NCBI GenBank assembly: GCA_949285255.1 | Contig: CASDXV010000007.1 | Location: 36,288 to 91,596, forward strand | DNA length: 55,309 nt | Source: an uncultured bacterium | GTDB taxonomy: Bacteria; Cyanobacteriota; Vampirovibrionia; Gastranaerophilales; Gastranaerophilaceae | Reading direction: 5' to 3' | In this document: positions 8,159 to 53,305 of the stretch, piece by piece | How positions within the stretch are numbered: position 1 is the first letter of the stretch | Layout: each line of letters opens with the position of its first letter | Notes under the pieces: model-generated | Told to the model about the DNA's origin: nothing | Seen by the model: the letters and a program-made list of their open reading frames with translations, nothing else | The model's database searches: none | Translations under genes and position numbers: made by a program

Positions 8159-8194
8159 TTGTCTGAAACAAATAAATAAATTATCCTGTAAATA
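8159..8194 (+). promoter_or_regulatory. leaderless promoter of the histidine kinase operon
   Basis: TTGTCT (8159-8164), 17-nt spacer, TATCCT (8182-8187), then 6 nt to the ATG at 8194. No Shine-Dalgarno precedes the ATG, so the transcript should begin at the start codon. Confidence 0.55.
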
Positions 8195-9750
8195 TGGATA
8201 CACGCGGGAAAATTGTACTTGTAGATGATGAAGTAATGGTTACAAAGACCCTCTCAACACTTTTAAAGCTGGAGGGGTTTAAGGATACCATAGCTTTTAA
8301 TGATTCGCAAGAAGCACTAAGCTACCTTAAGGAAAACCCTTGCGACCTTATTGTTTCGGATTTTATCATGCCAAAAATGGACGGCATTGAGTTTTTATCC
8401 AAAGCAAAAAAAATTCCGCTGCAAGAAGACACAACTCAAATTCTTTTAACAGGATATGCCGATAAAGAAAACGCTATTAAAGCTATAAATGAAGTAGGAA
8501 TTTTTAAATATATTGAAAAGCCTTGGAATAATGATGATTTAATACTGAATATAAAAAACGCTATCGAGCGGACAAATTTAAAAAAACAGTTAAAAGAAAA
8601 AATAATACAGTTAAAAATCGCAAATGACGAGCTTGAAGAATATTCTAAAAACCTTGAAGCACTTGTGCAAAAAAGAACAAAAGAACTCTATGAGAGCAGA
8701 GAAAAACTAAACGCCATTTTTACAAACTGCGCAGACGGGATAGTTACTTTTAAAAAAGACTACTCGATAAACTCGCTAAATCAGGCAGCATGCGAGCTTT
8801 TTGGACTTGAAGAAAAAGATATTTTAGGTAAAAACTTTTTTGAGCTTGTTATAAATGAAAAAAATCAAAAAGTTCAAAACCCTCTAAGCCTTGAGGGTGC
8901 AGAGTTTTTAAGGGATTTTAGCCTTGTAAACTACAAAAAAGACACTAAAATTCCTATTGAAATAAGTCTTGCAAAAATAGAAAATGACAGTGAACCTTTT
9001 GTGGTGGCTGTTATAAGGAATGTTTCCTATCAAAAGGAAAACGAAAGACTAAGGGATGATTTTATTGCAACACTCACTCATGATTTAAGAACCCCTCTGC
9101 TTGCAGCGATTAGTGGTCTTGAATTTATTATTAACGGCACATTAGGTGAAGTTGCACAAAAACAAAAAGAGCTTCTTGAAGCAATGAAAAAAAGTAACGA
9201 AGATATGCTGGGGCTTACAAATGCACTTCTTGAAGTTTACAGGTATGAAGCAGGCAAAATTTATTTGAGCAAATCGAGATTTTGCATAAATGAACTTATA
9301 AGAGAGTGCACAAAAGAGCTTGAAATGCTTCTTAGAGAGAACAATACAAAAGTCGAGTTTGATTTTGAAAGAAATAATGAGTTTGAAATTAACGCAGACA
9401 AAAACGAGATAAGAAGAGTTATTCTAAATCTTTTAGGCAACGCCATAAAACACGGGGGCGAAAATACAAAGGTTACAATATCAGCAAGACAAGAAAATAA
9501 AGACCTTAAAGTAAGTGTCAAAGACAACGGCACAGGACTTAGTGAAGAAGATTGCAAAAAACTCTTTAAGAGATTTTCTCAAGGCACAAGCAAAAAACGC
9601 TCCTGCTCAACCGGTCTTGGACTTTACCTGTCAAGGCAAATTGTTGAAGCGCACAACGGGACTATATTTGTCGAAAGCGAGCTTAACAAGGGCTCAACCT
9701 TTACTTTTATTCTTAAAAATGCAGCAATTGAAAGCAAGGTTTTATTATGA
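8194..9750 (+). CDS. REC-PAS hybrid histidine kinase
   Basis: A 518-residue cytoplasmic sensor kinase with no membrane segment. Domains in order: a receiver (about residues 5-125) with the acidic pair D11/D12, phospho-acceptor D56 in IVSDFIMPKMDG, and the conserved LLTGYA and IEKPW positions; a coiled linker; a PAS domain (about 170-280); a HisKA domain with H296 in THDLRTPL; and an HATPase domain with NLLGNAIKH (N box), DNGTGL (G1) and STGLGLYLS (G2). All catalytic motifs look intact. The N-terminal receiver suggests input from another kinase or feedback control. The stop overlaps the ATG of the next response regulator (ATGA), so the two are translationally coupled and form a cognate pair. 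Confidence 0.92.
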   Translation: MDTRGKIVLVDDEVMVTKTLSTLLKLEGFKDTIAFNDSQEALSYLKENPCDLIVSDFIMPKMDGIEFLSKAKKIPLQEDTTQILLTGYADKENAIKAINEVGIFKYIEKPWNNDDLILNIKNAIERTNLKKQLKEKIIQLKIANDELEEYSKNLEALVQKRTKELYESREKLNAIFTNCADGIVTFKKDYSINSLNQAACELFGLEEKDILGKNFFELVINEKNQKVQNPLSLEGAEFLRDFSLVNYKKDTKIPIEISLAKIENDSEPFVVAVIRNVSYQKENERLRDDFIATLTHDLRTPLLAAISGLEFIINGTLGEVAQKQKELLEAMKKSNEDMLGLTNALLEVYRYEAGKIYLSKSRFCINELIRECTKELEMLLRENNTKVEFDFERNNEFEINADKNEIRRVILNLLGNAIKHGGENTKVTISARQENKDLKVSVKDNGTGLSEEDCKKLFKRFSQGTSKKRSCSTGLGLYLSRQIVEAHNGTIFVESELNKGSTFTFILKNAAIESKVLL

Positions 9751-10412
9751 GCAAAGAAAATATAAAAATTTTAATCGTTGAAGACCATATGGTCGCAAGA
9801 ATGGGGATAGCTATTGTCGTTGAAAAAACCCCTAACTTAGAGCTTTTAGGACAAGCGTCAGACGGTCAAGAAGGTCTTATGCTGGCACAAAAACTAAGGC
9901 CTGATGTAATTTTAATGGACATAGGACTTCCTAAAATTGACGGTATTGAAGCAACAAGAAAAATAAAAGAACTTGGACTTAACAGTGCGGTTTTAATGTT
10001 CACATCAAGAGATAGCAATGAAGATGTCTTTGCAGCACTTAAAGCAGGAGCCGACGGGTATATTATGAAAGGCTCAAATGAGCAGACACTTATAAACGCT
10101 ATTGAAGCCGTAAGCCAAGGTGCAGGCTGGCTTGACCCTCAGATTGCAAGAGTTGTACTGTCCGGCATAAACGAACAAAAAGAAAACGCCAAAGAAACAA
10201 ATAAAGGCACAAAAAATAAATACGGGCTTACAAAAAAAGAACTTGAGGTGTTGTCTTTAATAGTTGACGGGCTCTCAAATAATGAAATAGCAGAAAAACT
10301 TGTTGTTTCATTGTCTACGACAAAAGCTCACGTACACAGTATTTTGCAAAAATTATACCTTTCAGACAGGACAAAAGCAGCCATCACGGCGCTTAAAGAA
10401 GGACTTGTTTAG
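9747..10412 (+). CDS. NarL/FixJ-type response regulator
   Basis: A 221-residue transcription factor. The receiver domain (about 5-120) has the acidic pair E12/D13, phospho-acceptor D58 in ILMDIGLPKIDG, and the switch region MFTSRD. The C-terminal LuxR helix-turn-helix (about 155-215) reads GLTKKELEVLSLIVDGLSN followed by EIAEKLVVSLSTTKAHV. It should be phosphorylated by the kinase encoded just upstream, with which it shares an ATGA overlap. The next gene starts at the base after its stop, so the secreted protein 10413-11372 is in the same transcript. Confidence 0.95.
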   Translation: MSKENIKILIVEDHMVARMGIAIVVEKTPNLELLGQASDGQEGLMLAQKLRPDVILMDIGLPKIDGIEATRKIKELGLNSAVLMFTSRDSNEDVFAALKAGADGYIMKGSNEQTLINAIEAVSQGAGWLDPQIARVVLSGINEQKENAKETNKGTKNKYGLTKKELEVLSLIVDGLSNNEIAEKLVVSLSTTKAHVHSILQKLYLSDRTKAAITALKEGLV

Positions 10413-11372
10413 ATGAAAAAATTCTCTACGCTGGTGCTTGCTGCTGTTGCACTTTTCATCTGCACACAGAGCAGTTTTGCTTTCTCTCTGCATAATCCTT
10501 TTTCTAAAAAAAGTAAGCAGGAAGCTGAAAAAATGGTTCAAACAAAACAGGAATGGGAAGAAAAAGCTCAAAACATCGACCTTGAAGAAAGAAAAATCTC
10601 CCCCTACCAAAGACCCGAGGATAAAGACTTTAAACCTAAAAATCCTCCTCTTAAAAAATTTGTAAAATATAACGTATCACCAGGGTATAGGGAGGCGGAT
10701 TTATCAAAAATAATAAGAGAAAAAGACATAAAAAGCCAAGGGGTTTTTGACCCGTCTTTTAAATACATTGCTTACACTCAGTACTATTACACACCTTTGT
10801 ATAATCAAATATCAAGCGAAGTGTATGTGCAAAAACTAAAAGAGGGTGCAACAAGAATGCAAAAAGCACTGAGTGCCACCCCTCTTAATACCCATAGAAC
10901 AGCTGCAATTGAAACAGGCACAAAAGAATTTCAAAAAGATTTATTTTCTACCCTTACCATAGTTGACTTTTCTAAAGATTCAAAAAAACTGCTTGTAAAA
11001 GAAAAAATAGGCTCGAACAAAGAGGGGATTTTCAGGAACTATGTTTGGGTATATTTTATGCAGGGAGATGAAATTGAATGGTTTGCAATTAAATTTAACA
11101 ACTTAAATGAAACAATAAAAAAATACCATGCTCAAAATTCTTATATAGCGCTTGATAACTACAGATGGGACATAAAGCCTCTGGGGTTTAGCAAGGAAAA
11201 CCCCGACGTCATAATTGTAGAATCATACGCTTGGGACAAAGACAAAAAAGAAATATTCTTAGGTCTTTGGGGACTTAACTGCGCTGATGCCTCGGTACAG
11301 TTGATATCAAAAGACCCCATGCCTGTTGAATTATCAATAAACGGACTTATGGTCAAAGAATATTTACCATGA
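10413..11372 (+). CDS. secreted protein of unknown function
   Basis: A 319-residue protein with a clear Sec signal peptide (MKK, hydrophobic core, cleavage likely after SSFA near residue 23). The mature part starts with a Lys/Glu-rich helical stretch (about 30-60), followed by a mixed, aromatic-rich domain to the C-terminus. I do not recognise a family, catalytic motif or lipobox, and there is no second membrane span. The ATG directly abuts the stop of the LuxR-type regulator. This suggests a periplasmic output or sensory accessory of that two-component system, which is inference from gene order only. Confidence 0.75.
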   Translation: MKKFSTLVLAAVALFICTQSSFAFSLHNPFSKKSKQEAEKMVQTKQEWEEKAQNIDLEERKISPYQRPEDKDFKPKNPPLKKFVKYNVSPGYREADLSKIIREKDIKSQGVFDPSFKYIAYTQYYYTPLYNQISSEVYVQKLKEGATRMQKALSATPLNTHRTAAIETGTKEFQKDLFSTLTIVDFSKDSKKLLVKEKIGSNKEGIFRNYVWVYFMQGDEIEWFAIKFNNLNETIKKYHAQNSYIALDNYRWDIKPLGFSKENPDVIIVESYAWDKDKKEIFLGLWGLNCADASVQLISKDPMPVELSINGLMVKEYLP

Positions 11373-11398
11373 CCCTGTTGCAAAAATATAAAATATGC

Positions 11399-11404
11399 TA
11401 TAAT
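11399..11404 (+). promoter_or_regulatory. -10 element upstream of the SprA-like gene
   Basis: Perfect TATAAT with a TTGCAA 15 nt upstream (11378-11383), which is shorter than ideal. It would give a leader of about 29 nt ending in GGTGGAAAAA before the ATG at 11440. Confidence 0.5.
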
Positions 11405-11439
11405 TATAGTAGTTGTGAAGGATTGCCTCGGGTGGAAAA

Positions 11440-11838
11440 ATGATAGAAATGAACAATTATCCTTTTTTGGGTCAAAGGAGCCAAAAACAGGAGATTGAAC
11501 GACTCAAAAAAGAAAACTACAGCAGAATATACTCCCATGAAGCTGCACACAAAGCGGCGGCAGGTTCTTTGGGCGGGCCTATTGTAATTGAGTACAATCC
11601 TCAGGGCATACCCGTTTCAGGCCATGTCAGTATCAGAATACCATCACTAAACAAAGCAAATCCCGATGAGACAATTTCTCAAGCGCAACAGGTAAAAAGA
11701 GCAGCGCTTGCCCCGGGGTCTGATTTATCTGATGCAGACTTAAATGTTGCAAGAGAGGCAGATGTTTTATTAAGCGAAGCACAAAGCCTTAAAAAAGATA
11801 GTGCAAGACGAGGCGAAACACTTGATATTACAGGCTAG
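11440..11838 (+). CDS. short SprA-related putative metalloprotease
   Basis: This 132-residue protein matches the core of the SprA-related family: SHEAAHKAAAG carries an HExxH zinc motif and is followed by GGPIVIEYNPQGIPVSGHV. The SLNKANPDETISQAQQVKRAAL and ALAPGSDLSDADLNVAREA segments (split here for length) also fit. Family members known to me are usually longer, with an N-terminal extension; here almost only the conserved domain remains, without signal peptide or membrane helix. The gene has its own -10 and a GGTGG ribosome-binding site, and its stop overlaps the convergent tsaB stop by 4 nt. Peptidase activity is predicted only from the zinc motif. Confidence 0.72.
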   Translation: MIEMNNYPFLGQRSQKQEIERLKKENYSRIYSHEAAHKAAAGSLGGPIVIEYNPQGIPVSGHVSIRIPSLNKANPDETISQAQQVKRAALAPGSDLSDADLNVAREADVLLSEAQSLKKDSARRGETLDITG

Positions 11839-12479
11839 TTACCTTTAGTAAACACAGGCGGTGTTTGTATGTAATTTGCCTTTAATTTGGCGTGGGCAAA
11901 ATCTTCTTTAGGGCATTTTGAAGCATTTAATTTCTCAAGCGCAAGTTTATACATAACGCTTGCAAGAGGGTAGTTTTGCTTTTCATAATTTATAAATTCA
12001 GCACCGAAAGCACCTGAAAAATCCCTATAGACCCCACTATCGCATATAACTTTTTTATTTTTTATTTTGTTTTCAACATCATCTTTTAAAATAAGTTCAA
12101 TTTTAGAATCTTCATAGTAATAATACATAAGACGTCTTGCATCAAGCAAAACGACGCTATCATCACCTGAAGCACTTTTTAAAATCTCGCAAGAGTTAAG
12201 CGTCACAACAGGCAAATCAAGCTCAAGCGCCATAACTTTTGCCACACTAAGCGCTGCTCTAATGCCTGTGAAACTCCCGGGGCCACAGTTTACGCAAAGG
12301 GCGTCCAGCTCTTTTAAGGTAAGATTTTTATCCTCAAGCATTTGCTTAATTTTAGGAATTAAATAAGCACTGTGATAATTTGTATCATCACTTTTTATCT
12401 CGCAGCACTCGCAGTCGTCATTATTGCCTAAAGCAATGTATGTTTTATCTAAAGATGTATCAAAACAGAGGATTTTCAC
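11835..12479 (-). CDS. tsaB: tRNA t6A37 synthesis protein TsaB
   Basis: A 214-residue ASKHA-fold protein that scaffolds TsaD in making N6-threonylcarbamoyladenosine at position 37 of ANN-decoding tRNAs. Conserved features are the N-terminal ILCFDTS strand, the HSAYLIPKI segment, and CGPGSFTGIRAALSVAK, diagnostic for TsaB. Length is close to family norm. Its start overlaps the stop of tsaE by 4 nt, forming a tsaE-tsaB operon; tsaD and tsaC are not in the window. Confidence 0.95.
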   Translation of the reverse strand: MKILCFDTSLDKTYIALGNNDDCECCEIKSDDTNYHSAYLIPKIKQMLEDKNLTLKELDALCVNCGPGSFTGIRAALSVAKVMALELDLPVVTLNSCEILKSASGDDSVVLLDARRLMYYYYEDSKIELILKDDVENKIKNKKVICDSGVYRDFSGAFGAEFINYEKQNYPLASVMYKLALEKLNASKCPKEDFAHAKLKANYIQTPPVFTKGN

Positions 12480-12976
12480 TTAATCACCTCGTAGTCTTTT
12501 AAAATATTTTGCGCAAATATCTTGTTTTCATCTCCCCAAGGTTCAAACTCAAACACCCTCGGGTCGCCGTTTTCACCATATTCAAGGACATCAGGGTATA
12601 AAATTTTTATGTTTAATCTGTCAAGAGAAAGTGCGCCGGCGCCAAAATCCGCCCACTCAACAAAAGTTAAAACATTTCTTTTGGAATAATCTGCAAGCTC
12701 CTGCTCAATTGTCTTTATACCCTCGTTTTCAAGCCTGTAGAGGTCAAAGTGGTATATCGGCATTTTGTAGTTTAAATATTCATTTAATATAACAAAACTG
12801 GGGCTTGTGACTTTGTCTTTTACACCTAATTCTTTTAAAACATATCTTACAAAGGCTGTTTTACCTGCGCCGATATCGCCATACAGTGATACAAAGCAGC
12901 CGCTGTCGGGCAGATTTTTTGCAAATGCCCTAGCAAGCCTTTTTGTGTCATCCAGATTTTTACACTCGATTTTCAT
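12476..12976 (-). CDS. tsaE: tRNA t6A37 synthesis ATPase TsaE
   Basis: A 166-residue P-loop ATPase that regenerates the TsaB-TsaD complex during t6A synthesis. The Walker A motif is in YGDIGAGKTAFVR. SPSF-VILNEY and the HFDLYRL signature follow, and FVEWADFG is also typical. It is the first gene of the tsaE-tsaB operon. Its promoter is an extended -10 (TGTTAAAAT) placed exactly 6 nt before the ATG, with no Shine-Dalgarno, so the mRNA is probably leaderless. Confidence 0.95.
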   Translation of the reverse strand: MKIECKNLDDTKRLARAFAKNLPDSGCFVSLYGDIGAGKTAFVRYVLKELGVKDKVTSPSFVILNEYLNYKMPIYHFDLYRLENEGIKTIEQELADYSKRNVLTFVEWADFGAGALSLDRLNIKILYPDVLEYGENGDPRVFEFEPWGDENKIFAQNILKDYEVIK

Positions 12977-12982
12977 AAATTA

Positions 12983-12991
12983 ATTTTAACA
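12983..12991 (-). promoter_or_regulatory. leaderless tsaE promoter (extended -10)
   Basis: Minus-strand TGTTAAAAT (12991-12983); the hexamer TAAAAT ends 6 nt before the ATG whose A is 12976. There is no good -35, compensated by the TGn extension. Confidence 0.6.
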
Positions 12992-13081
12992 TAAATACAC
13001 AAAACCTAAAGTTCAATCAAGCATGTGACGAGAACATAAATACAAGGATATTAGTGTATATGGCAGAAAGGTTGAAGTGTT

Positions 13082-13258
13082 ATGAATGATTATTTGAACT
13101 ATGGGGAGTACAATCCGGATATGTGCGAATACAACCCGAGAAGCGCAGAACTGGAGAGCGAATTAAGAAGCCTTGTTGAAAGTGTAGAAAATCCTAAAAT
13201 GTCTTTCTTGCAAGGATTTATGAAAAGAATTATACTCCTTACCTCCGCACAAAACTAA
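13082..13258 (+). CDS. small protein of unknown function (58 aa)
   Basis: This short reading frame encodes an acidic N-terminal half rich in Tyr/Asn (MNDYLNYGEYNPDMCEYNP...) and an amphipathic or basic C-terminal half (FMKRIILLTS). Support comes from an AGAAAGG ribosome-binding site about 10 nt upstream, a clean stop, and a strong hairpin terminator 8 nt after the stop. It is transcribed divergently from tsaE. I recognise no family and there is no signal peptide. Confidence 0.6.
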   Translation: MNDYLNYGEYNPDMCEYNPRSAELESELRSLVESVENPKMSFLQGFMKRIILLTSAQN

Positions 13259-13265
13259 ACCCATT

Positions 13266-13296
13266 AAAAAAGCCTGCAAGCTATGCGGGCTTTTTT
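13266..13296 (+). terminator. bidirectional intrinsic terminator
   Basis: The stem AAAAAAGCCTGCA/TGCGGGCTTTTTT (one T-G wobble) has a 5-nt loop (13266-13278 with 13284-13296). A-runs and T-runs on both sides make it usable for the small gene and for the convergent gene ending at 13295. Confidence 0.88.
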
Positions 13297-13933
13297 AGAA
13301 TAATTTTTTATTGCCTTGCTCGTGGAACTGGCCGCCTGCGCAGACAAGCTCAATAACTTTTAGTAAAAACTCTCTTGGGGCATCAATAGGGCTTATCAAA
13401 AATTCCTGATTATCTTTGTGTCTTATTGTCATAATAGAACTTTGAGTTTTTTCCGCAGGAACATAAAGTGACGCAATTTCATTATCCAAAAGTGCTCTCA
13501 TTTGCGAGTCATAATCATCAGCACCTTTCATAATAGTTGCGTAGTTACCGTTAAGTGCAAAAATTCTTCCGCAAAATAACGGCGCTCTGCCCTCCTGCGG
13601 CAAGGCTTTTGGAGAAATATTAAAACGAGATGTAAAGGTTATTTTATGCCATAAAATATTCACACAAGCAAGCGTTTGAGAATTATCTATCTCGCAAAAT
13701 ACATTTTGTGTCGGGATATTTCTTATTTTAAAAGACTGTTTAAGGTACTCAAGGACAGACTGCATAGTGTCAAGCATCTTAATAAAAGTTTCTTGAGTAA
13801 ATTGTGTTGATTGCTGAAAATCAAGAAACTGCTTGTACATATACACGGCAACAAGCCCTGCACGTTCTTGTACAACGGAGGACTTACGAACCTGTATATC
13901 AAGATTGTCAAGACTGTCAAAATTGTTCTGCAA
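13295..13933 (-). CDS. hypothetical protein, 212 aa
   Basis: I do not recognise this soluble protein. An N-terminal helical region (about residues 15-75, QERAGLVAVYMYKQFLDF and onward) precedes a mixed alpha/beta part with Phe/Ile-rich strands. There is no signal peptide, membrane helix or obvious catalytic motif. The start codon is TTG, preceded by AGAAAGG at about 10 nt; no better ATG exists near the N-terminus. It ends in the bidirectional terminator, so it is probably monocistronic. An 18-bp palindrome lies in the region shared with divergent xerC. Confidence 0.65.
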   Translation of the reverse strand: MQNNFDSLDNLDIQVRKSSVVQERAGLVAVYMYKQFLDFQQSTQFTQETFIKMLDTMQSVLEYLKQSFKIRNIPTQNVFCEIDNSQTLACVNILWHKITFTSRFNISPKALPQEGRAPLFCGRIFALNGNYATIMKGADDYDSQMRALLDNEIASLYVPAEKTQSSIMTIRHKDNQEFLISPIDAPREFLLKVIELVCAGGQFHEQGNKKLF

Positions 13934-13995
13934 TTTATTTTAGCCTTTCTGAGAAGATATCTAAATGATATAACAAAAACGGGGATAATTAATAT

Positions 13996-14013
13996 AAGAA
14001 TAATATTATTCTT
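13996..14013. promoter_or_regulatory. 18-bp perfect palindrome, operator-like
   Basis: AAGAATAAT directly abutting its reverse complement ATTATTCTT lies in the 158-nt space between the hypothetical gene (minus, start 13933) and xerC (plus, start 14092). It sits about 60-75 nt upstream of the predicted xerC transcription start and close upstream of a possible minus-strand promoter. The form resembles Fur/PerR-type operators, but this is only a resemblance. Confidence 0.45.
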
Positions 14014-14059
14014 TACATTTTAGAATACGGGATTTATATTATTTTTTTGAAATTAAGTG

Positions 14060-14065
14060 TATAAT
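14060..14065 (+). promoter_or_regulatory. xerC -10 element
   Basis: Perfect TATAAT preceded directly by TG; predicted start near 14072, leaving a 20-nt leader with CGGGGA before the ATG. No clear -35 is seen. Confidence 0.5.
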
Positions 14066-14091
14066 TAAAAAAAGACACATCGGGGAATTTT

Positions 14092-14994: not shown

Positions 14995-15051
14995 ACACTT
15001 AGCCTACACAGGCAATAACTATGTATAAAAAATTGTACTATCATCATTTTG

Positions 15052-23797: not shown

Positions 23798-23832
23798 TTG
23801 TCTTTTTTTTATAAAAAAGTATAATCTATATA
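23798..23832 (+). promoter_or_regulatory. leaderless promoter of the secreted-protein gene
   Basis: TTGTCT (23798-23803), 16-nt spacer, perfect TATAAT (23820-23825), then 6 nt to the ATG at 23832; no Shine-Dalgarno. Confidence 0.65.
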
Positions 23833-24555: not shown

Positions 24556-24591
24556 ATGAAAATTATTTTTGATAACTCTATTTTTGAGTTA
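24556..24591 (+). promoter_or_regulatory. leaderless promoter with small inverted repeat
   Basis: ATGAAA (24556-24561), 17-nt spacer, TATTTT (24579-24584), 6 nt, ATG 24591. A 6-bp inverted repeat TAACTC/GAGTTA (24573-24578 and 24586-24591) surrounds the -10 and touches the start codon. It is the weakest member of the leaderless set. Confidence 0.4.
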
Positions 24592-25467: not shown

Positions 25468-25503
25468 TTGTTATAATTTGAATAAAAATTTAAAATGGTC
25501 TTG
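25468..25503 (+). promoter_or_regulatory. leaderless comEC promoter
   Basis: TTGTTA (25468-25473), 17-nt spacer, TAAAAT (25491-25496), 6 nt, GTG 25503. The placement supports GTG as the true start. Confidence 0.55.
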
Positions 25504-27971
25504 TGGAAACAAATTACAAGACCATTTTAATAATTACGGTAACTATATCTTATATTCTTGGCATATGTTCGTTCATCACAGTGCATAGTGAAATGTATGC
25601 GATTTTGTGCGCGCTAATTTTATGCGCTTTTATGTTTTTAGGGTTAATAAAACCAAAACACACACTTTTTATTTTTCTTATTTTTATAGCAGGTTTTATA
25701 AACACAAAACATTCAATAAAAGACACAAACCAGCTTGCTAACACTCATGCAAATAACGTCTGTCTTTATGGCAGAGTAACATCAATTCCTACTAAAACAA
25801 GGGAAGGTACAAGAGCAAAATTTTACCTTGATGTCGATAGGGCGCAAGTTTATCAAAAAACGTATAAAATAAATAATTCTAAAGCCCTTGTAACAATAAA
25901 TGACGACAACAAAAGTTTTAATGAAATTCAAATCTCGGATAAAATAAAAATCTGCGGAAATTTAAGAGAGCCAAAGGCTGCGACAAATCCCTCCCAGTTT
26001 GACTACGCTAAATACCTAAAATACCATGACACTTTTTCTGTTTTATATTCAAACGGCAAAAATTTTGAGATTTTAAGCAAAGCAGACAGTTACAAAAACC
26101 TTGAAGAGTTTTGGTGGTACATTCTGAATAAAACAGACAGTGCAAGAAAAAAGATAATAGATAAACACGCAAAATATGTAAAAAGCCCGCAGCTTGAAAT
26201 ACTTGGCGGAATAGTTTTTGGCAATGAAGCAATAAATCCGCCCGATGAAATAAAACAGAGCTTTATAAACTCGGGACTTTTACACCTTTTAGCTGCAAGC
26301 GGATTAAATGTCGCGCTGATTTTTGGAATCTGGTGGTTTTTGGCGCAAAACCTCAGACTTCCATACACTATTTCTATCTGGGGCGGTATAGCTTTTGTAG
26401 TGCTATATACTTTTATGACAGGCTTTCCGCCATCTGTTATAAGAGCCTCTATTATGCTTCTTTTTGTACTGTTGGGTAAATTAATCGACAGGCAATCAAA
26501 ACCTGTGGCTCTTATTTTCTTTGTAGGGTTTATTATGTTGATATTTGACCCAAAAATGTTTCTTGACGTAGGTTTTCAGCTTTCATTTATCGTAACTATA
26601 GGGCTTATTTCATCAATTGAACCGATAGTGCAAAAAGCAAGCACCTTGCAGAAAGATTTTATTAAAAGAATTAAGGACTATCCTAAAGCTCTTAAAATTC
26701 CTCTTATGATAATATCGCCAAAATCACTGTTTGCAATGGTTTTAGTCCCACTATGCGCGCAGCTTTTTGTCTGTCCTTTACAGATGTATTACTTTAACAC
26801 TTTTACACCTTGGAGTCTTTTTGCAAATCTTTGTGTTGTACCTTTTATAGGGATTATAAGCTTTCTTGGTTTTATAAGCTCGATTTTGGGTTTTATTCCT
26901 TTTATAGGGATAAAATTTATAGCATTTTTTGATATTGTTTCTAACCCGCTTTTAGTTTTACTTGTTAAAATATCAAAATTCTTCTCGACCCTTAAATACT
27001 CAATAATCACAACACCCTCACCAAATATTGTTCAAATGCTTTTATTTTGGATAATACTCATTTTAATTGTTCAAAATATAAAATTATCTTTTAAAAATAA
27101 AAAGATTTTATACGGGCTTTTAGCTTGCGTTTTAGTACTTTGTTTAACTTTTATCAAACTGCCCGAGGGTGACTTTGAGATACTTGCTTTTGATACGGGA
27201 AATTCCGATTGCACGTTAATTAAGACACAAAAGAACAAATACATAATGATAGACACAGGTAAAATGCCCTACAAGGGACTATCTGATGCAAAAATCATAA
27301 CAAGCGAGTACCTTAAGGATAAAAACATAAAAGAACTGGAAATTTTAATCATAACTCACTTTGACTCAGACCACTGCGGCGGAGCAGTCGATATTTTAAA
27401 TGATTTTAAAGTTAAAAAAGTTTATCTTCAAAACTCTAACCCAAGCGAACCCATAGGAAAAAGGATTCTAGAAAAACTAAATAAGGAAAATATAGAGTAT
27501 AAAATAGCCAAAAACAATGAAATTATCTACAAAGAGGATAATCTGGAGTTAACAACATATGTGGCAAATTTTAATAATATGGCGAAAAATAAAGCGGATA
27601 ATGAAAATTCTATAATAACTCTTGTAAAATCAAACTCCACTCGTGCGCTTTTTATGGCAGATGTGAGCGCGGATACTTTTTCTAAAATAAAAGAATTACA
27701 TAAAAGCGTTGATATTCTAAAAGTAGGTCACCACGGCGCAAGATATTCAGTCAATGAAAACATGCTTAAAATATTAAAACCAAAATACTCAATAATTTTA
27801 GGCGGTTACAACACCTACGGTCATCCGTCTTATGAAACCGTTAAACTTCTTCAAAAATCAGACACCAAAGTACTTCTTACAAGAGAACTCGGGGCTATAA
27901 AAATTTCAAACCCCATAGGCAAGACCTACAGGGTTGAACATTTTGATAACGGTTTTAAAGAACTTAAATAA
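25503..27971 (+). CDS. comEC: DNA internalisation competence protein ComEC/Rec2
   Basis: An 822-residue inner-membrane channel for uptake of transforming single-stranded DNA. The N-terminal DUF4131/OB-like region (about 30-190) is followed by the Competence domain with many helices (about 215-550; LLHLLAASGLNVALIFGIWW segment) and a C-terminal metallo-beta-lactamase domain (about 560-800). The last carries ITHFDSDHCGGAVD (HxxxDH metal motif), VGHHGARYS and ILGGYNTYGHPS. The start is GTG, favoured by the promoter 6 nt upstream; the nearby ATG 25495 is out of frame. No comEA, comF or pilus gene is in the window. One base separates it from the convergent yebC stop. Confidence 0.94.
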   Translation: METNYKTILIITVTISYILGICSFITVHSEMYAILCALILCAFMFLGLIKPKHTLFIFLIFIAGFINTKHSIKDTNQLANTHANNVCLYGRVTSIPTKTREGTRAKFYLDVDRAQVYQKTYKINNSKALVTINDDNKSFNEIQISDKIKICGNLREPKAATNPSQFDYAKYLKYHDTFSVLYSNGKNFEILSKADSYKNLEEFWWYILNKTDSARKKIIDKHAKYVKSPQLEILGGIVFGNEAINPPDEIKQSFINSGLLHLLAASGLNVALIFGIWWFLAQNLRLPYTISIWGGIAFVVLYTFMTGFPPSVIRASIMLLFVLLGKLIDRQSKPVALIFFVGFIMLIFDPKMFLDVGFQLSFIVTIGLISSIEPIVQKASTLQKDFIKRIKDYPKALKIPLMIISPKSLFAMVLVPLCAQLFVCPLQMYYFNTFTPWSLFANLCVVPFIGIISFLGFISSILGFIPFIGIKFIAFFDIVSNPLLVLLVKISKFFSTLKYSIITTPSPNIVQMLLFWIILILIVQNIKLSFKNKKILYGLLACVLVLCLTFIKLPEGDFEILAFDTGNSDCTLIKTQKNKYIMIDTGKMPYKGLSDAKIITSEYLKDKNIKELEILIITHFDSDHCGGAVDILNDFKVKKVYLQNSNPSEPIGKRILEKLNKENIEYKIAKNNEIIYKEDNLELTTYVANFNNMAKNKADNENSIITLVKSNSTRALFMADVSADTFSKIKELHKSVDILKVGHHGARYSVNENMLKILKPKYSIILGGYNTYGHPSYETVKLLQKSDTKVLLTRELGAIKISNPIGKTYRVEHFDNGFKELK

Positions 27972-28793: not shown

Positions 28794-28801
28794 TATATAA
28801 T
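28794..28801 (+). promoter_or_regulatory. promoter of the TPR-glutaredoxin operon
   Basis: TGCTATATAAT gives overlapping -10 choices (TATATA 28794-28799 with TGn extension, or TATAAT 28796-28801). The start would be at 28806-28808, only 2-4 nt before the ATG at 28810, with no Shine-Dalgarno. Confidence 0.5.
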
Positions 28802-28809: not shown

Positions 28810-29271
28810 ATGAAAAACGAACTTTCAAGAATAGATTACATAAGAGAGCTTATTAAAGACTGCAGGTACGACGAAGCACTTGAAGCACTTGAAGTTGCGC
28901 AGGCAAAAGAGCCTGACAATTGGGAATTGTTTTATGAATTTGCAAGACTGCAGTTTGAGCTGGGTGACTATGCAAGCGCTGTAGCCAACTATGAAGAGCT
29001 CATTGAACACCACCAAAGTGCAATTATTTACTATAACTTGGGTGAAGCGTATGAATGCAACAATCAGCTTGATAAGGCAATAGGTTCATACCTTAGAGCC
29101 CTTACGGTTAATGAAAAATTTCCTTTCGCATATAAAAAACTCGGTATGCTTTTTATGGCAAGAAATGATATGGAAAGCGCAAAAGAATATTTTGAAGACT
29201 ATCTGAAATTAGACGTAGCGCAAGATGAAAAAGAGAGCGTAGAAAAAGTTCTAAAAAGGATAGAAAAATGA
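28810..29271 (+). CDS. TPR-repeat protein, 153 aa
   Basis: A small soluble protein made of about four tetratricopeptide repeats (DEALEALEVAQAKEPDNWEL, then DYASAVANYEELIEH, DKAIGSYLRALTVNEKFPFA and ESAKEYFEDYLKLD). TPRs bind other proteins; no catalytic domain is present. Its stop overlaps the glutaredoxin ATG by 4 nt, so the two are translationally coupled, which may mean a shared client. The target is unknown. Confidence 0.85.
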   Translation: MKNELSRIDYIRELIKDCRYDEALEALEVAQAKEPDNWELFYEFARLQFELGDYASAVANYEELIEHHQSAIIYYNLGEAYECNNQLDKAIGSYLRALTVNEKFPFAYKKLGMLFMARNDMESAKEYFEDYLKLDVAQDEKESVEKVLKRIEK

Positions 29272-29764: not shown

Positions 29765-30223
29765 CTAAAGAGGGCTGTTTTCATTGAGCATAAATTTGCT
29801 TGCAACTTTTTGTTCAAAAAAATAAACGACTTTTTCTTTAAAAGTTTTCGGTACAACTTTTTCTTTCTCGGGTTCGTTTATAATAACCAGAACCTCGTTT
29901 TTTGCGGCCATCTTAAGGTTATTTCTGGCTATTGACTCTACTTTTTCCATAGAGTTAAAATTCTCAACTTCTTTTTTTAGAGTTTTATTTCTCTTTTGAG
30001 CCACTTCAAGCAACTGGCGGGATTTAACAATTTTACTTTGATATATAACGATTTTTGAAATGTTTAAAAGCGCACTGTAGCTTATCTGAAAAACACACAA
30101 CATAAGAACAATAGTCAAAAAAGAATGATAAAAGCGAACTTTTGTATTTTTCTTTTTTTGATTTTTTTGAACCTTTTGTTTAAGGTTGTCTTTGCTTAAT
30201 GTTTTTACATTTTCCATCTGCAT
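29765..30223 (-). CDS. FtsB/DivIC-like septum formation protein
   Basis: A 152-residue bitopic membrane protein: Lys-rich cytoplasmic N-terminus (about 1-30), one transmembrane helix (FLTIVLMLCVFQISYSALL, about 35-53), then a periplasmic coiled coil (about 60-95). A conserved-looking MEKVESIARNNLKMA segment, typical of FtsB/DivIC/FtsL proteins that activate septal peptidoglycan synthesis, follows. A longer C-terminal tail (about 115-152) is unusual. FtsL is the main alternative. The ATG at 30223 is exactly 6 nt after a TAAAAT, suggesting a leaderless mRNA; ATG 30217 is a possible alternative start. Confidence 0.75.
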   Translation of the reverse strand: MQMENVKTLSKDNLKQKVQKNQKKKNTKVRFYHSFLTIVLMLCVFQISYSALLNISKIVIYQSKIVKSRQLLEVAQKRNKTLKKEVENFNSMEKVESIARNNLKMAAKNEVLVIINEPEKEKVVPKTFKEKVVYFFEQKVASKFMLNENSPL

Positions 30224-30229: not shown

Positions 30230-30258
30230 ATTTTAGCGCGGTCGGTGTTTTTTTTCCA
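30230..30258 (-). promoter_or_regulatory. leaderless promoter of the ftsB-like gene
   Basis: Minus-strand TGGAAA (30258-30253), 17-nt spacer, TAAAAT (30235-30230), 6 nt, ATG with A at 30223. Confidence 0.55.
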
Positions 30259-37193: not shown

Positions 37194-37202
37194 ATTTTAG
37201 CA
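37194..37202 (-). promoter_or_regulatory. leaderless rlmN promoter (extended -10)
   Basis: Minus-strand TGCTAAAAT (37202-37194); the hexamer ends 6 nt before the ATG with A at 37187. No strong -35. Confidence 0.62.
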
Positions 37203-37243
37203 CAATCATACAAATAACGTGTGTAATTTGTAAAAAATATGGG

Positions 37244-37249
37244 TATAAT
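37244..37249 (+). promoter_or_regulatory. leaderless promoter of the HD-GYP operon
   Basis: Perfect TATAAT ending 6 nt before the ATG at 37256; no convincing -35 and no separate Shine-Dalgarno beyond a TAGGA directly abutting the ATG. Confidence 0.62.
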
Positions 37250-42848: not shown

Positions 42849-42880
42849 ACACTTAATAACATTTGTATGCATTTTGGGGG

Positions 42881-48422: not shown

Positions 48423-48428
48423 AGTTTG

Positions 48429-48445
48429 TTATATAATTATATAAT
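48429..48445. promoter_or_regulatory. palindromic bidirectional -10 region of relA and the DUF167 gene
   Basis: TTATATAATTATATAA (48429-48444) is a perfect palindrome. It carries TATAAT on the plus strand (48432-48437 and again 48440-48445) and on the minus strand (48441-48436), pointing in both directions. Confidence 0.6.
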
Positions 48446-48481
48446 ATATGAATTCTACAACTTTGATTGAGATTTTACCAT

Positions 48482-48793
48482 ATGCTAAATGATGTAAATG
48501 AAAATAATATCCCAAAAGACTTGGAGGGAATGATAAATACAATTAACAACAATCAAAACGGGATAAAGTTTCAAATTAAAGTTTGCGCCAATTCAAAGAA
48601 AAACTCCATTGAATTTAGTGAAAATTATATAAAGCTTAAAATATCAAAACCAGCGGTCGATGGCAAGGCAAACAAAGAGATAATAAATTTTTTAAGTGAT
48701 ATTTTAAATTTACCTAAAAATAATATTAAAATTCTCAACGGAGAAAAATCATCTCTTAAAATGTTACTTTTTACGCCCAAAACTTTACAATAG
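48482..48793 (+). CDS. DUF167/YggU family protein
   Basis: A 103-residue protein whose C-terminal 75 residues match the DUF167 fold (FQIKVCANSKKNSIEF, then KLKISKPAVDGKANKEIINF, LNLPKNNIKILNG). The family function is unknown. The N-terminal 28 residues are a Asn/Asp-rich extension. ATG 48482 is preferred to an in-frame TTG at 48467; neither has a good ribosome-binding site. A 14-codon frame starting at 48448 ends at 48492, overlapping this start. It is divergent from relA. Confidence 0.8.
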   Translation: MLNDVNENNIPKDLEGMINTINNNQNGIKFQIKVCANSKKNSIEFSENYIKLKISKPAVDGKANKEIINFLSDILNLPKNNIKILNGEKSSLKMLLFTPKTLQ

Positions 48794-48909
48794 TAACAAA
48801 TACACTTCATGTTTTAAAAAAGTTATGTTATAATTCTTAACAAAAGAGCAATTATTAATCTGTATTTGATTTATAAATATCAAGTGAAGAATTTTTTCGG
48901 AAGGTTGAC

Positions 48910-50772
48910 GTGAATTTTTACAAAAATCCCCATAATCCAACCAATCAGACGGGTGAAACAGATATAAAATCAGAAGATTCTAAGCTGAGTGTGCTTTTTT
49001 CAAACCCCATTACCGCTCAAAAAGCTATGCCGCAGAACAACAGAACCAGCGCAAACAGACTCTATGGCGGCTATTCTTCAAATTTAAACACAAAGAATCT
49101 TAATATTAACTATAAACAAACCCTAAAAATTATAAATGAAGTACTTATGCAAAAGTCCGATATCGGACAGCTCTTTTATATGCTGCATAACGTCTTATCC
49201 GCAAATATGCAGGCAAACTTTAGTGCTATAGGGCTTCTAAATGCTCAATCAAACTGCGTTAATGTAAAATTGATTGATAAAATAGGTTCAATTTACAATA
49301 CAAAAATCATGTTAAATGATGACACAAACCCTCTGATTAAGTCATATTTAACAAAAACCATACAAACTTGTCAGGATAATAAGTTTTTAAGAGCAAACTA
49401 TTTAAGCAGCTCTCCTTGTATAATTTTACCCCTTGTATCTTTTGGAGAATGTCTTGGAGTATTTATCGTAGGTGATAATCATCTGAACACTTGTACAGAG
49501 TTGTATCAATTCTTGGCAAACTATATTGCAATTTTTGCTCACAACAGAAATCTGGCTGAACTTGTGGACAAAAACACAGACATTGACTCACTTACGGGTC
49601 TTGCTAACCACAAGTGCTTCCAAGAAGAACTTATAAGACAAATAGAAAGCTGCAACAAGTCAAACTCACCGCTTTCAGTTTGTATATTTGACGTATTAAA
49701 TATTTCTCAAATAAACAGGGAATTCGGCCACGCCAAGGGTGACGAGATAATAAAAACGGTTGCAAAGAAAATTAAACAAAACATCAGAAATACTGACTTT
49801 GCTGGCCGTTACGGCGGAGATGAAATAAGCATCATTATGCCAAATACATCTACAGATGAGGCAAAATACATTGCGGAATACCTATCTTACGCTCTTTCTT
49901 GCGTTCTTATAGATGATGTAGGCCCTGTTAAGTTAAGCTGCGGTATAGCAACATATCCGCAAACTTCAAAAAATCACGAAAAACTCGTGCTTCTTGCAGA
50001 ACAGGCAATGTATATTTCAAAAAGCAAATGCTATGAAAGCGGCGATTGTGTAATTGTAACATCGGAAGACTACAACTTCTGGGATGACGAGGCTCTTAAG
50101 TGCTTTGCAGAAGTATTAACCAAAAAACACGCGCAAATCGGTGTGGACTTTGAAGAAGAACTTATCCACAAATTCCACAATGAGCAGATTTTATCAAGCA
50201 AACACATGCTTGAGGTTGTAACTTCTCTGGCGGGCACAATCGATGCTAAAGACCCATATACAAAAGGTCACTCGACACTTGTGTCACGCTACAGTGAGGC
50301 TCTTGCCAGAGCTATCAATCTGCCTGAAGCTGAAGTTGAGCGTATTAAGCTGGGTGCACTGCTTCATGATATAGGAAAAATAGGCATACCTGAAAATGTA
50401 CTTAGAAAACCGGCCATGCTTGATGATGAAGAGTGGGAAATTATGAAACAGCACCCTGTAATCGGTGCGGAAAAAGTTCTTGCTCCAAACGAATCACTTC
50501 GCGACTTAATACCTATGGTTAAATATCACCACGAACACTGGGACGGTACAGGCTATCCTTGCGGTTTAAAAGGAGAAGAAATACCGCTCAATGCAAGAAT
50601 TGTATCTATTGCAGATGCTTACCATGCTCTTGTATCAGACAGACCGTACAGAAAAGGCTTAAGTGTAGAAAAAGCTTGTGAAATCCTTAAGCTTGGAGCA
50701 GGTGTACAGTGGGATAAAGAACTTGTAAGACAATTTATTGTAATTGCACCAAGTCTGTCAACTACTGTTTAG
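48910..50772 (+). CDS. GAF-GGDEF-HD-GYP cyclic-di-GMP enzyme
   Basis: A 620-residue cytoplasmic protein combining both cyclic-di-GMP domains. A disordered N-terminus (about 1-65) precedes a GAF-like sensor domain (about 70-215) and a GGDEF domain (about 225-380). The latter has active site RYGGDEI and an inhibitory RNTD five residues upstream. A linker leads to a C-terminal HD-GYP domain (about 430-610) with LLHDIGKIGIPENVL, KQHPVIGAEKVL and HHEHWDGTGYPCGL. All key residues are present, so both synthesis and hydrolysis are possible, with product inhibition. The start codon is GTG with GGAAGG 5 nt upstream. It overlaps the convergent glycosyltransferase stop by 4 nt. Confidence 0.94.
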   Translation: MNFYKNPHNPTNQTGETDIKSEDSKLSVLFSNPITAQKAMPQNNRTSANRLYGGYSSNLNTKNLNINYKQTLKIINEVLMQKSDIGQLFYMLHNVLSANMQANFSAIGLLNAQSNCVNVKLIDKIGSIYNTKIMLNDDTNPLIKSYLTKTIQTCQDNKFLRANYLSSSPCIILPLVSFGECLGVFIVGDNHLNTCTELYQFLANYIAIFAHNRNLAELVDKNTDIDSLTGLANHKCFQEELIRQIESCNKSNSPLSVCIFDVLNISQINREFGHAKGDEIIKTVAKKIKQNIRNTDFAGRYGGDEISIIMPNTSTDEAKYIAEYLSYALSCVLIDDVGPVKLSCGIATYPQTSKNHEKLVLLAEQAMYISKSKCYESGDCVIVTSEDYNFWDDEALKCFAEVLTKKHAQIGVDFEEELIHKFHNEQILSSKHMLEVVTSLAGTIDAKDPYTKGHSTLVSRYSEALARAINLPEAEVERIKLGALLHDIGKIGIPENVLRKPAMLDDEEWEIMKQHPVIGAEKVLAPNESLRDLIPMVKYHHEHWDGTGYPCGLKGEEIPLNARIVSIADAYHALVSDRPYRKGLSVEKACEILKLGAGVQWDKELVRQFIVIAPSLSTTV

Positions 50773-51557
50773 ATGTGATAATACTCAAGCTCTTCGTTAA
50801 GATTTAGTTTCTTTGCATCTTTTTCAAATATTTTTGACTTGTAAATACCTGTATTTGCAAGGAAATAATCAATGCTTACTTTTAGAACGCCAAGACCGTA
50901 TTTTAGCGAGCGCTTGAAGTTTATTGAACTTGCGTCAGGAAAATACTTAGTAGGGCAAGATATTTCACCTATTTTAAATCCGTAGTAAAAACAAAGCGCA
51001 AGCATTTCATTGTCAAAAATAAAATCGTCATCACACTCGCTAAGAGGGAGAGTTTTTAAAACTTCAGCACTAAAAGCTCTAAAGCCGGTATGATATTCGG
51101 ATAAACTTTTGCCTGATAAAATATTTTGAAAAGCGGTTAAAAATTTGTTTGAAACATACTTATACAAAGGCATACCACCTTTTCTTGCCGAGCCTGTTAA
51201 CATTCTTGAGGCAATAGCTGCGTCATACTCCCCAAAAGCAATCATAGACGCCATAGCGGGGATTAGTTTTGGCGTATATTGATAATCAGGATGCAGCATA
51301 ATTACAATATCGGCGTTTTCCTTTAGTGCTGCAATGTAACATGACTTTTGGTTAGCACCGTATCCGAGGTTATTTTTATGAACAATTGTAGTAATGCCAA
51401 GGTTTTTTGCTATTTCTTTTGTTTTATCAATTGAATTATCATCAACAAGAATAACAGAGTCCACAATACCCTTATATATCTCGGAAAATGTCTTTTCAAG
51501 GGTCTTTTCCGCATTGTATGCAGGCATTATAACTACGACTTTTTTGTTGTTTATCAT
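50769..51557 (-). CDS. family 2 glycosyltransferase
   Basis: A 262-residue GT-A enzyme resembling dolichol/undecaprenyl-phosphate mannosyl- or glucosyltransferases. It has VVVIMPAYNAEKTLEKTF, ILVDDNSIDKTKEIA, NLGYGANQKSC and the metal-site segment IVIMLHPDYQYTPKL (HPD where DPM1 has DAD). No transmembrane helix follows, unlike the GtrB type. Acceptor and donor are unknown; no polysaccharide cluster is adjacent. The TAAAAT 6 nt upstream of the ATG and a shared -35 with the divergent TPR gene indicate a leaderless mRNA. Confidence 0.9.
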   Translation of the reverse strand: MINNKKVVVIMPAYNAEKTLEKTFSEIYKGIVDSVILVDDNSIDKTKEIAKNLGITTIVHKNNLGYGANQKSCYIAALKENADIVIMLHPDYQYTPKLIPAMASMIAFGEYDAAIASRMLTGSARKGGMPLYKYVSNKFLTAFQNILSGKSLSEYHTGFRAFSAEVLKTLPLSECDDDFIFDNEMLALCFYYGFKIGEISCPTKYFPDASSINFKRSLKYGLGVLKVSIDYFLANTGIYKSKIFEKDAKKLNLNEELEYYHI

Positions 51558-51622
51558 ACATATATTTTAGTTGTAAACTTAATTAGTTGCAAATGATTAA
51601 ATAAAAAAATATAATAAGAGCT
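51558..51622. promoter_or_regulatory. mirror-symmetric divergent promoter with a shared palindromic -35
   Basis: TTGCAA (51587-51592) is its own reverse complement. To the right, a 17-nt spacer leads to TATAAT (51610-51615) and, 7 nt later, the ATG at 51623. To the left, a 17-nt spacer leads to TAAAAT on the minus strand (51569-51564) and, 6 nt later, the ATG at 51557. Neither gene has a Shine-Dalgarno. Confidence 0.7.
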
Positions 51623-53305
51623 ATGAGCCCACAAGAAGAAAACTCTATAGATTACATAAAAAAGTCCTTTGAACTAAAAAATTCAAAGTTGTATAAAGAA
51701 GCAATTGAAATGCTCTACAAAGCTCTTGAGCTTGAAGAGGGCAGAGCAAATACTGAAATTATCTCTCAAATAGGCGATTTGTATGTACTTTTAAAAAACT
51801 ACGAGCGCGCTATTGAAGAGTATGAAAAAGTCTTGGACATTGACAAAAAACACATCCACTCGCTTGATGAAATGTCAAAAATATATTTTCTTATGGGCAA
51901 TTATCCAAAAGCCCTTGAGGTATCCAAAAAACTCCTTGAATCAACAAGTGAGGCTAAGTATTACATAAATCATTTTCAGATTTTATATAAACTTAAATAC
52001 TTTGATAAAATGAGCGAGTTGTATGAATCAATAAGCGAAAACTTAAAAAATCACCCCCATATACTCTACCTTATGTCAAAAACAGGATTGTACCCGAAGG
52101 TAGAATTTCTAAAAAGAGCAGCAGATGGGGATAGAAACCTCGCTTGTGCTTATTTTGAACTTGCTATAGAGTATTTTAACGAAGAAAAGTTCAATGAGGC
52201 AAAACCGCTTTTTAAACACGTAATTGAGTTAGAAAAAAATTCAAATGCGTATTTTTACCTTGGAATGATTGAACATATCGAGGGTAATTTCTTTGATGCT
52301 ATTGATAATTACCTTGAGTGCATAAAACTTGATAAAACAAATGACAGATGCTGCTTTGAGCTTGCAAAAGCATACATTGACATTAACTGGCTTGAAGAAG
52401 CACAAATTGCAATTAAAGGCTCTATAGGAATTTTAAAACTAAAAGACGAAAACTCCCTAAAGCTTGACGAGCACCATTTTTTACTCGCTTGGATTTTATC
52501 TAAACAAGACGATACAAAAGGTGCACTTTTGTACCTTGATTTGATAAATAAAGATTCAAAAATGTATCCTAATGCTCAAATTCTTAAAAATACCCTTAAT
52601 TTAACAAGCGACAACTACATAAGCGCAAAAGAAGTTTTGGAAAATTATTACAATAACAACCCCGATGATTCAAAAAACCCGATTTTAATAGAATCACTGG
52701 GAAAAATTTATAAAAACCTTAAACTCTACAAAGAAGCCATAAATCTTTATGAAAAAGCGCTTGAGTTTTTCCCGAATTCTCTTTTTTATGCGCTTGAATT
52801 AACAGATATTTTAATTGATGACAAACAATATGACAAAGCTCTTGAACTTGCAAAAAAACTTGAACATCAAGCACCCAAGTGCCCAAGCACTTATAATTCT
52901 TTGGCAAGAATATATTACAGACTAAAAAACTACGATGCTGCAATTGAAAATTTAAAAATTCTAAATCAGCTTGATATAAATAACGCAGAGGGATTTTATT
53001 TCTTAGGCCTTGTACAAAATGACACCTGTCAAGCTCAAGCAGCGCTTGAGAACTTCAAAATCGCCCTTACGCTTAATCCCATGCCCGCAAAATACTACGC
53101 TCAAACCGCAAGAGCATACGAAACTCTCGGCGATTATGAAAACGCTATGCTCTATATAAAGGAAGCAATTGAGATAGCACCTGAAGAAATTAATTACAAA
53201 AGACAGGCAAAAGACATAGCCCAAAAAATGAACGACAAAGAAAGAGTCGACTTTTACTCTTCTCAAATCAGCCGCCTTGAGCAGCTTTTAAGGCAAAGAG
53301 GCTAG
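51623..53305 (+). CDS. long TPR-repeat protein, 560 aa
   Basis: A soluble protein composed almost wholly of TPR repeats, about 13-15 units (YERAIEEYEKVLDIDKKHIH, YPKALEVSKKLLEST, FFDAIDNYLECIKLDKTNDR, YKEAINLYEKALEFFPNSLF, YENAMLYIKEAIEIAPEEIN). It lacks a signal peptide, membrane helix or catalytic domain. It probably works as a scaffold; a glycosyltransferase-associated role is conceivable because it shares a promoter with the divergent GT2 gene, but this is inference. Its stop overlaps the convergent U32 gene by 4 nt. Confidence 0.88.
   Translation: MSPQEENSIDYIKKSFELKNSKLYKEAIEMLYKALELEEGRANTEIISQIGDLYVLLKNYERAIEEYEKVLDIDKKHIHSLDEMSKIYFLMGNYPKALEVSKKLLESTSEAKYYINHFQILYKLKYFDKMSELYESISENLKNHPHILYLMSKTGLYPKVEFLKRAADGDRNLACAYFELAIEYFNEEKFNEAKPLFKHVIELEKNSNAYFYLGMIEHIEGNFFDAIDNYLECIKLDKTNDRCCFELAKAYIDINWLEEAQIAIKGSIGILKLKDENSLKLDEHHFLLAWILSKQDDTKGALLYLDLINKDSKMYPNAQILKNTLNLTSDNYISAKEVLENYYNNNPDDSKNPILIESLGKIYKNLKLYKEAINLYEKALEFFPNSLFYALELTDILIDDKQYDKALELAKKLEHQAPKCPSTYNSLARIYYRLKNYDAAIENLKILNQLDINNAEGFYFLGLVQNDTCQAQAALENFKIALTLNPMPAKYYAQTARAYETLGDYENAMLYIKEAIEIAPEEINYKRQAKDIAQKMNDKERVDFYSSQISRLEQLLRQRG

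Follow-up and report, generated by a model that had tools for sequence, protein, structure and literature searches.

The window examined here (the whole 55,309-nt stretch, part of contig CASDXV010000007.1, which we designate C7) comes from an uncultured bacterium of the family Gastranaerophilaceae in the order Gastranaerophilales, a group of non-photosynthetic Vampirovibrionia/Melainabacteria within the cyanobacterial phylum. It carries a series of genes in which a hexamer resembling a −10 promoter element lies at a nearly fixed distance from the start codon: a hybrid kinase gene (start at position 8194), tsaE (12976), two genes at 23832 and 24591, comEC (25503), a DivIC/FtsB-like gene (30223), rlmN (37187), an HD-domain gene (37256), a GT2 gene (51557) and two TPR genes (28810 and 51623). 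On the basis of the letters alone, the original prediction had proposed that these genes are leaderless, with the hexamer ending 6 nt before nine of the starts, 7 nt before 51623 and 8 nt before 28810, and with no Shine–Dalgarno (SD) sequence in front of any of them. Defining the gap as the number of nucleotides between the last base of the hexamer and the start codon, we found TANNNT at gap 6 for all nine starts, gaps of 7 and 8 for the other two, and no SD motif by pattern search for any of the 11. The hexamers had been described as similar to TATAAT or TAAAAT, which is true of seven of the nine and fails for 8194 (TATCCT) and 24591 (TATTTT).

We called genes on 455 kb, comprising the window and a further 400 kb of the same genome (28% of the genome, which consists of 1.6 Mb in 43 contigs; the GC content of the stretches is 36%), and obtained 376 genes. 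The gene caller was our own and chose starts by codon usage and start-codon type alone, ignoring the upstream sequence. Among the 46 genes called in the window, TAWAAT appeared five times at gap 6 and at most twice at every other gap from 0 to 44; the starts at 30223 and 25503 were called elsewhere and are therefore absent from this count. In all 376 genes, the counts of TAWAAT were 22 for gap 6 and 14 for gap 7, compared with 1.8 and 1.6 in dinucleotide shuffles and, after scaling, 0.3 and 1.8 upstream of internal in-frame ATGs. When gaps 12–44 were used as the background, 36 matches were observed at gap 6/7 against 6.5 expected, and this background is conservative because true promoters fall within those gaps. 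The relaxed pattern TAWWWT was present at gap 6/7 in 45 of the 187 genes without an SD motif and in none of the 189 with one, although part of this exclusion is mechanical, as an SD motif and the hexamer would need the same bases. The comparison of hexamer distances with shuffled sequence, which had been suggested for the whole genome, yielded on 28% of it a sharp peak at 6–7 nt confined to non-SD genes. Using a weight matrix trained on eight relatives, we estimated the excess at 7–9% of all genes and 9–11% of first genes (defined below). The sequence data therefore support the class that had been announced, whereas calling it large was generous. As a separate observation, TAWAAT at gap 7 is common in this genome (G000; 14 vs 22 at gap 6) and rare in its relatives in the genus (2 vs 13) and the family (3 vs 26).

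The same pipeline was applied to other organisms. TAWAAT was found at gap 6/7 in none of 105 genes of a Ligilactobacillus plasmid (32% GC) and in none of 36 Escherichia coli genes. Deinococcus deserti is rich in leaderless genes; on a plasmid of this species (99 genes), TANNNT was found seven times at gap 6 and five times at gap 7, against a background of 0.5. The −10 motif of D. deserti is cited in PMC12340547. In Ligilactobacillus, the extended motif TGnTAWAAT followed by ATG occurred twice at gap 6 and 0–3 times at other gaps, showing no peak, with small numbers throughout.

The positional signal did not depend on gene calls. In 1.26 Mb from nine genomes of the family, TGnTAWAAT followed by TATG occurred 33 times at gap 6 and 0–7 times at every remaining gap in the range 1–30. 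For whole-genome counts of the gap-6 motif we used as a control the pattern read backwards, which tests composition and not spacing, the spacing having been tested separately on the nine family genomes. All 95 family genomes sampled had more motif than control matches (3049 vs 174 in total), including the present one (24 vs 2). One genus, g88 (G168, G173, G174, G180, G191, G192 and G199), gave a weaker signal (95 vs 11 in seven genomes), the median of the other 88 genomes being 34 per genome.

For the 22 genomes sampled from the order's other families, the motif and control counts were 48 vs 3 in four genomes of f6, 57 vs 11 in 10 of f3, 20 vs 3 in three of f7 and 6 vs 0 in the single genome of f5, while f2 (6 vs 6 in two) and f4 (8 vs 9 in two) showed no excess. 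Beyond the order but within the class (43 genomes), we obtained 46 vs 3 in five genomes of f10, 42 vs 16 in eight of f12, 9 vs 4 in four of f11, 5 vs 2 in two of f15, 4 vs 3 in one of f13, 2 vs 5 in two of f14, 6 vs 5 in 13 of f8 and 9 vs 5 in eight of f9. Three of the f10 genomes (G031, G037 and G055) contained 12–14 motifs each against 0–1 control matches, and the other two contained 3 vs 2 and 4 vs 0; to judge from these counts, f10 is possibly a second leaderless lineage in the class. When called genes were counted, the strict signal was observed in 15 of 152 genes of the genus (3.3 expected), 29 of 481 of the family (7.7), 6 of 139 of f6 (2.2), 2 of 175 of f7 (2.3) and 6 of 543 of other class members (3.9). 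Four genomes of the wider phylum (GC approximately 0.53, none of them of the low-GC Prochlorococcus-like type) gave 1 in 306 genes (0.6 expected) and no peak. A missing signal is weak evidence because a GC content close to 50%, as found in many of the negative genomes, leaves few TAWAAT by composition.

We then considered whether the hexamers resemble promoters in their surroundings. Pooled tests covered 11 genomes of families f1 and f6 (this genome, two of its genus, six of its family and two of f6, an order-level family), with the class picked by hexamer and gap alone. TGn preceded TAWWWT in 42 of 107 cases at gap 6/7 compared with 89 of 905 at gaps 10–44 (P = 1e-13), and in this genome alone in 16 of 45 compared with 32 of 303 (P = 5e-5). 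TTG was located at spacers of 16, 17 and 18 nt for 14, 16 and 6 of the 107 gap-6/7 hexamers, and the 12 remaining spacers had counts of 0–4 each; the corresponding counts for 349 hexamers at gaps 10–24 were 8, 19 and 11. Genes were regarded as first genes if they had a divergent neighbour or lay at least 40 nt behind a same-strand gene, and as operon-internal if that distance was below 25 nt. Strict TA-led signals were found in 77 of 794 first genes but in only 5 of 302 operon-internal genes (P = 6e-7), and the base at −1 was T in 66 of 80 gap-6 genes compared with 145 of 340 other non-SD genes. These results indicate that the hexamers probably belong to sigma-70-type promoters, with TGn or a −35 element and a position in front of first genes.

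The arrangement at the listed loci (Table 1) is kept in 12–15 genomes of the genus for six of the nine gap-6 genes and for both TPR genes, although the genus genomes are mutually related, so that conserved rows, like the divergent pairs described below, are not independent events. The hexamer was retained at gap 6 as TANNNT upstream of the kinase gene (13/13 genus genomes), as TAAAAT upstream of tsaE (13/13), the GT2 gene (13/13) and the DivIC/FtsB-like gene (14/14, together with the first ATG), as TATAAT upstream of the HD-domain gene (14/14) and as TANAAT upstream of rlmN (15/15). For the TPR gene at 51623, 10 of 13 genomes have gap 6 and three have gap 7, and at 28810 gap 8 is shared by all 12 genomes with a located copy of the gene. 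The gene at 23832 was seen in three genomes, with gap 6 in the window and gap 7 in both relatives. The signal at 24591 is weak (the same position reads TATGCT in two relatives), and this gene may lie inside an operon. A protein search with RlmN returned 15 loci in named genomes, 13 of them at 83–96% identity (nine from Candidatus Gastranaerophilales, one from Candidatus Galligastranaerophilus intestinavium and three from 'uncultured bacterium') and two at 43–45% (an Erysipelotrichaceae bin and a WOR-3 bin). Outside the genus, TANNNT was present at gap 6 of rlmN in 4 of 14 genomes, including both f6 genomes; some start codons among the 14 are uncertain, and starts at most eight codons from the expected place were accepted in distant genomes.

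Table 1. Promoter-like elements and associated features in the window (positions as in the 55,309-nt stretch)
Feature	Positions	Strand	Remarks
Hybrid kinase promoter	8159..8187	+	TTGTCT, 17 nt, TATCCT; ATG 8194, gap 6
tsaE −10, TAAAAT	12983..12988	-	TGT in front; ATG 12976
23832 gene −10, TATAAT	23820..23825	+	ATG 23832; no Pfam family
24591 gene weak −10 candidate, TATTTT	24579..24584	+	ATG 24591; no Pfam family
comEC promoter candidate	25468..25496	+	TTGTTA, 17 nt, TAAAAT; proposed GTG start 25503
comEC inverted repeat	25490..25530	+	13-bp arms, 15-nt loop; encloses start, overlaps −10
28810 TPR gene −10, TATAAT	28796..28801	+	8 nt before ATG 28810
DivIC/FtsB-like gene −10, TAAAAT	30230..30235	-	ATG 30223
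rlmN −10, TAAAAT	37194..37199	-	TGC in front; ATG 37187
Conserved box, AACGTGTG-like	37217..37226		At overlapping rlmN/HD −35 positions; seen in relatives
HD-domain gene −10, TATAAT	37244..37249	+	ATG 37256
GT2 gene −10, TAAAAT	51564..51569	-	ATG 51557
Palindromic TTGCAA	51587..51592		Between GT2 and TPR genes; in 13/13 genus genomes
51623 TPR gene −10, TATAAT	51610..51615	+	ATG 51623, gap 7

We consider it very probable that these genes represent a class of leaderless mRNAs, transcribed from sigma-70-type promoters whose transcription start would be the A of the ATG. Such a promoter would often consist of an extended −10 element (TGnTAWAAT) and a weak TTG −35 element at 16–18 nt; with the −10 element ending 6, less often 7, nt before the ATG, RNA polymerase would start on the A that follows the T at −1. 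The resulting mRNAs would presumably be translated through direct binding of 70S ribosomes to their 5΄ ends, and a normal SD class would operate beside them in the same genome. The position of the hexamer, its promoter anatomy, its conservation and its spread are observed, and from these we infer the 5΄ end of the RNA and the mode of translation.

Several observations weigh against this interpretation. In this genome alone, TTG was less pronounced (3, 4 and 3 of 45 hexamers at spacers 16–18), as was the difference between first and operon-internal genes (30/243 vs 4/112, P = 0.01; for gap 6 only, 18/243 vs 3/112, P = 0.09), and of the 35 strict TA-led genes whose neighbour was called, 4 sit 7–14 nt behind a same-strand gene. 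The strict excess amounts to just 7–9% of genes. If the inverted repeat around the comEC start is active as RNA, the transcript must start upstream, and comEC would not be leaderless. Moreover, as the 5΄ end is deduced from sequence, a leader of 1–5 nt is compatible with the data.

Such very short leaders would arise if the same promoters started transcription 1–5 nt before the ATG, producing near-leaderless mRNAs. The occurrence of gap 7 (14 genes here) and gap 8 (28810, 12/12 genomes) fits this possibility, as do 8 of 13 comEC orthologues whose ATG lies 12 nt past the hexamer. However, gap 6 accounts for 13 of 15 strict matches in the genus and 26 of 29 in the family, and the T at −1 in 66 of 80 gap-6 genes is what a start on A would lead one to expect; we therefore regard short leaders as unlikely. 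The AT-rich hexamer could also be a translational element, such as an S1 site or an A/U-rich enhancer, and no promoter at all. An upstream AT-rich bias in non-SD genes has been described for several phyla including Cyanobacteria, with leaderless promoters or S1 sites as possible causes (PMC5397173), but a translational element would not account for the TGn extension, the TTG at 16–18 nt, the enrichment in first genes or the fixed register, and we consider this explanation very unlikely.

It is still less probable that the starts were mis-called and that the true ones lie downstream behind a normal leader. The gene at 30223 does have a second ATG, at codon 3, and comEC orthologues use a downstream ATG; however, the peak persists without gene calls, and the first ATG of 30223, kept in 14/14 genomes, is the likely start, the codon-3 ATG being absent in 4 of 13 relatives. 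A downstream true start at 30223 was rejected on this conservation. Chance in AT-rich DNA has a negligible probability even at 36% GC, since shuffles, internal ATGs, the low-GC plasmid and the reversed-pattern controls are all contrary to it, which bears out the earlier argument that AT-richness alone would not repeat a fixed distance so often. Leaderless transcription as proposed above remains strongly supported by the sequence.

The original prediction had included a leaderless GTG start, that of comEC, and this part was not upheld. The TTGTTW and TANAAT elements are kept in relatives (for some rows, the 17-nt spacing comes from a count by eye), but the start codon is not: the GTG is present in only 4 of 13 genus genomes (this one, G013, G008 and G001), and among the other nine an ATG lies 6 nt past this position in eight and at gap 8 in G006. 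In the nine genomes of the family, the gene-call-free motif did not peak at gap 6 when combined with GTG, TTG or CTG; TGnTAWAAT followed by GTG was found four times at gap 6 compared with 1–8 times at other gaps, giving no GTG enrichment, and a single GTG start was present among the 80 gap-6 TAWWWT genes of the 11 genomes. A general class of leaderless GTG, TTG or CTG starts was accordingly rejected for want of a positional peak. At the comEC locus itself, a leaderless GTG is possible, though not as a property of the class.

The inverted repeat at comEC was compared in 12 genomes (10 distinct sequences; G006 lacks the repeat and was left out), and 99.2% of 130 cells were paired. Two pairs were changed on both sides, a number equalled by 66 of 500 shuffles, while none of the 500 reached the covariation score; three of the four doubly changed cells belong to the three closest genomes. 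The copy in the window had a folding z of −2.8, with 2 of 200 shuffles equally stable. The repeat is a candidate for an operator or an mRNA hairpin.

Two pairs of listed genes are divergent. A spacer of 65 nt separates the GT2 and TPR genes (51557/51623), and the distance from TTGCAA to either −10 box is 17 nt (counted by eye), so that this palindrome could be a single −35 element shared by the two putative promoters. Between the rlmN and HD-domain genes there are 68 nt, in which the −35 positions of the two (assigned from 17-nt spacers) overlap, and the AACGTGTG-like box there is a possible activator site. In two relatives, G014 and G004, two strict gap-6 hexamers face opposite directions within a 30-nt spacer; if truly promoters, such back-to-back extended −10 boxes would force mutually exclusive transcription. 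Divergent pairs closer than 60 nt numbered 18 of 201 in families f1 and f6 compared with 3 of 178 in other genomes, a comparison in which the second group has a different GC content and genome size and the same pairs recur among related genomes. We tentatively suggest, with more doubt than confidence, that the leaderless layout expanded near the base of the family (together with f6) and shaped these genomes, with divergent genes closely arranged around bidirectional leaderless promoters that would occupy all of the 30–68 nt separating their start codons.

The mechanism is known elsewhere. The authors of GeneMarkS-2 have reportedly surveyed leaderless transcription. Among the open-licence papers listed, we found no report of leaderless genes in Gastranaerophilales/Melainabacteria. 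TA-led leaderless genes have been described in many bacteria by Zheng et al. 2011 (PMC3160421). The present genomes resemble that account in a TATAAT-like signal approximately 12 bp upstream of the start, above shuffles, with SD-led genes alongside, and in the TG peak of several low-GC genomes; as differences, Cyanobacteria do not appear in that paper's list of leaderless groups and are called rich in 'atypical' genes, and the excess here is 7–9% of genes. In Deinococcus-Thermus (PMC12340547), the −10 motif likewise lies mostly 6–7 bp before the open reading frame, with a ribosome-binding-site class alongside, but nearly one-third of D. radiodurans genes are involved and TACACT is commonest, in contrast to TAWAAT with TGn and almost exclusively ATG here.

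For phototrophic cyanobacteria, published counts are 19 leaderless gene transcription start sites (gTSSs) in Synechococcus elongatus UTEX 2973 (PMC6091082) and 51 leaderless gTSSs in Synechocystis (as cited in PMC9938897); in Prochlorococcus MED4, 6–8% of the primary TSSs are located within 10 nt (PMC5607370). Cyanobacteria are among the phyla reported to have many leaderless mRNAs (PMC5397173). These transcripts were mapped, whereas our evidence is a sequence signature; according to these reports, leaderless expression nevertheless has precedents in the phylum. With the present results, an uncultured, non-photosynthetic family of the cyanobacterial phylum joins the groups that show a clear leaderless class, for which the results also provide a genome-wide sequence signature. 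They are relevant to start-codon annotation of metagenome-assembled genomes in this order, offer ready-made leaderless promoters and make leaderless gain and loss within the phylum testable.

In the translation machinery, the anti-SD sequence (CCTCC tail) was intact in all seven order and class relatives with a 16S 3΄ end (15 genomes searched, eight matched); a search of the present assembly found no 16S match. A lineage that had lost SD-dependent initiation was ruled out by the SD motif on 189 of 376 genes and the intact tails in relatives, and the leaderless class would therefore coexist with SD initiation. A search for bS21 in 58 genomes of the class was positive for 57, including this one. 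Two ribosomal protein S15 genes occur in the same bin (G000, contigs C39 and C6), one of them on a 3.6 kb contig, and contamination is possible.

Outside the window there were 30 strict TA-led genes. A Pfam scan covered 29 of them, the remaining one extending across two stretches, and assigned a family at 1e-6 to 27. The products of TA-led genes are ordinary, with core functions among them: enzymes, SmpB, MraW, glycyl-tRNA synthetase beta, an EngA-like GTPase, DXP reductoisomerase, an FHIPEP-family protein, an integrase-family protein, TsaE and RlmN. Across the 376 genes, the codon-usage score of strict TA-led genes (0.156) was lower than that of SD genes (0.190, P = 1e-4) and similar to that of other non-SD genes (0.159).

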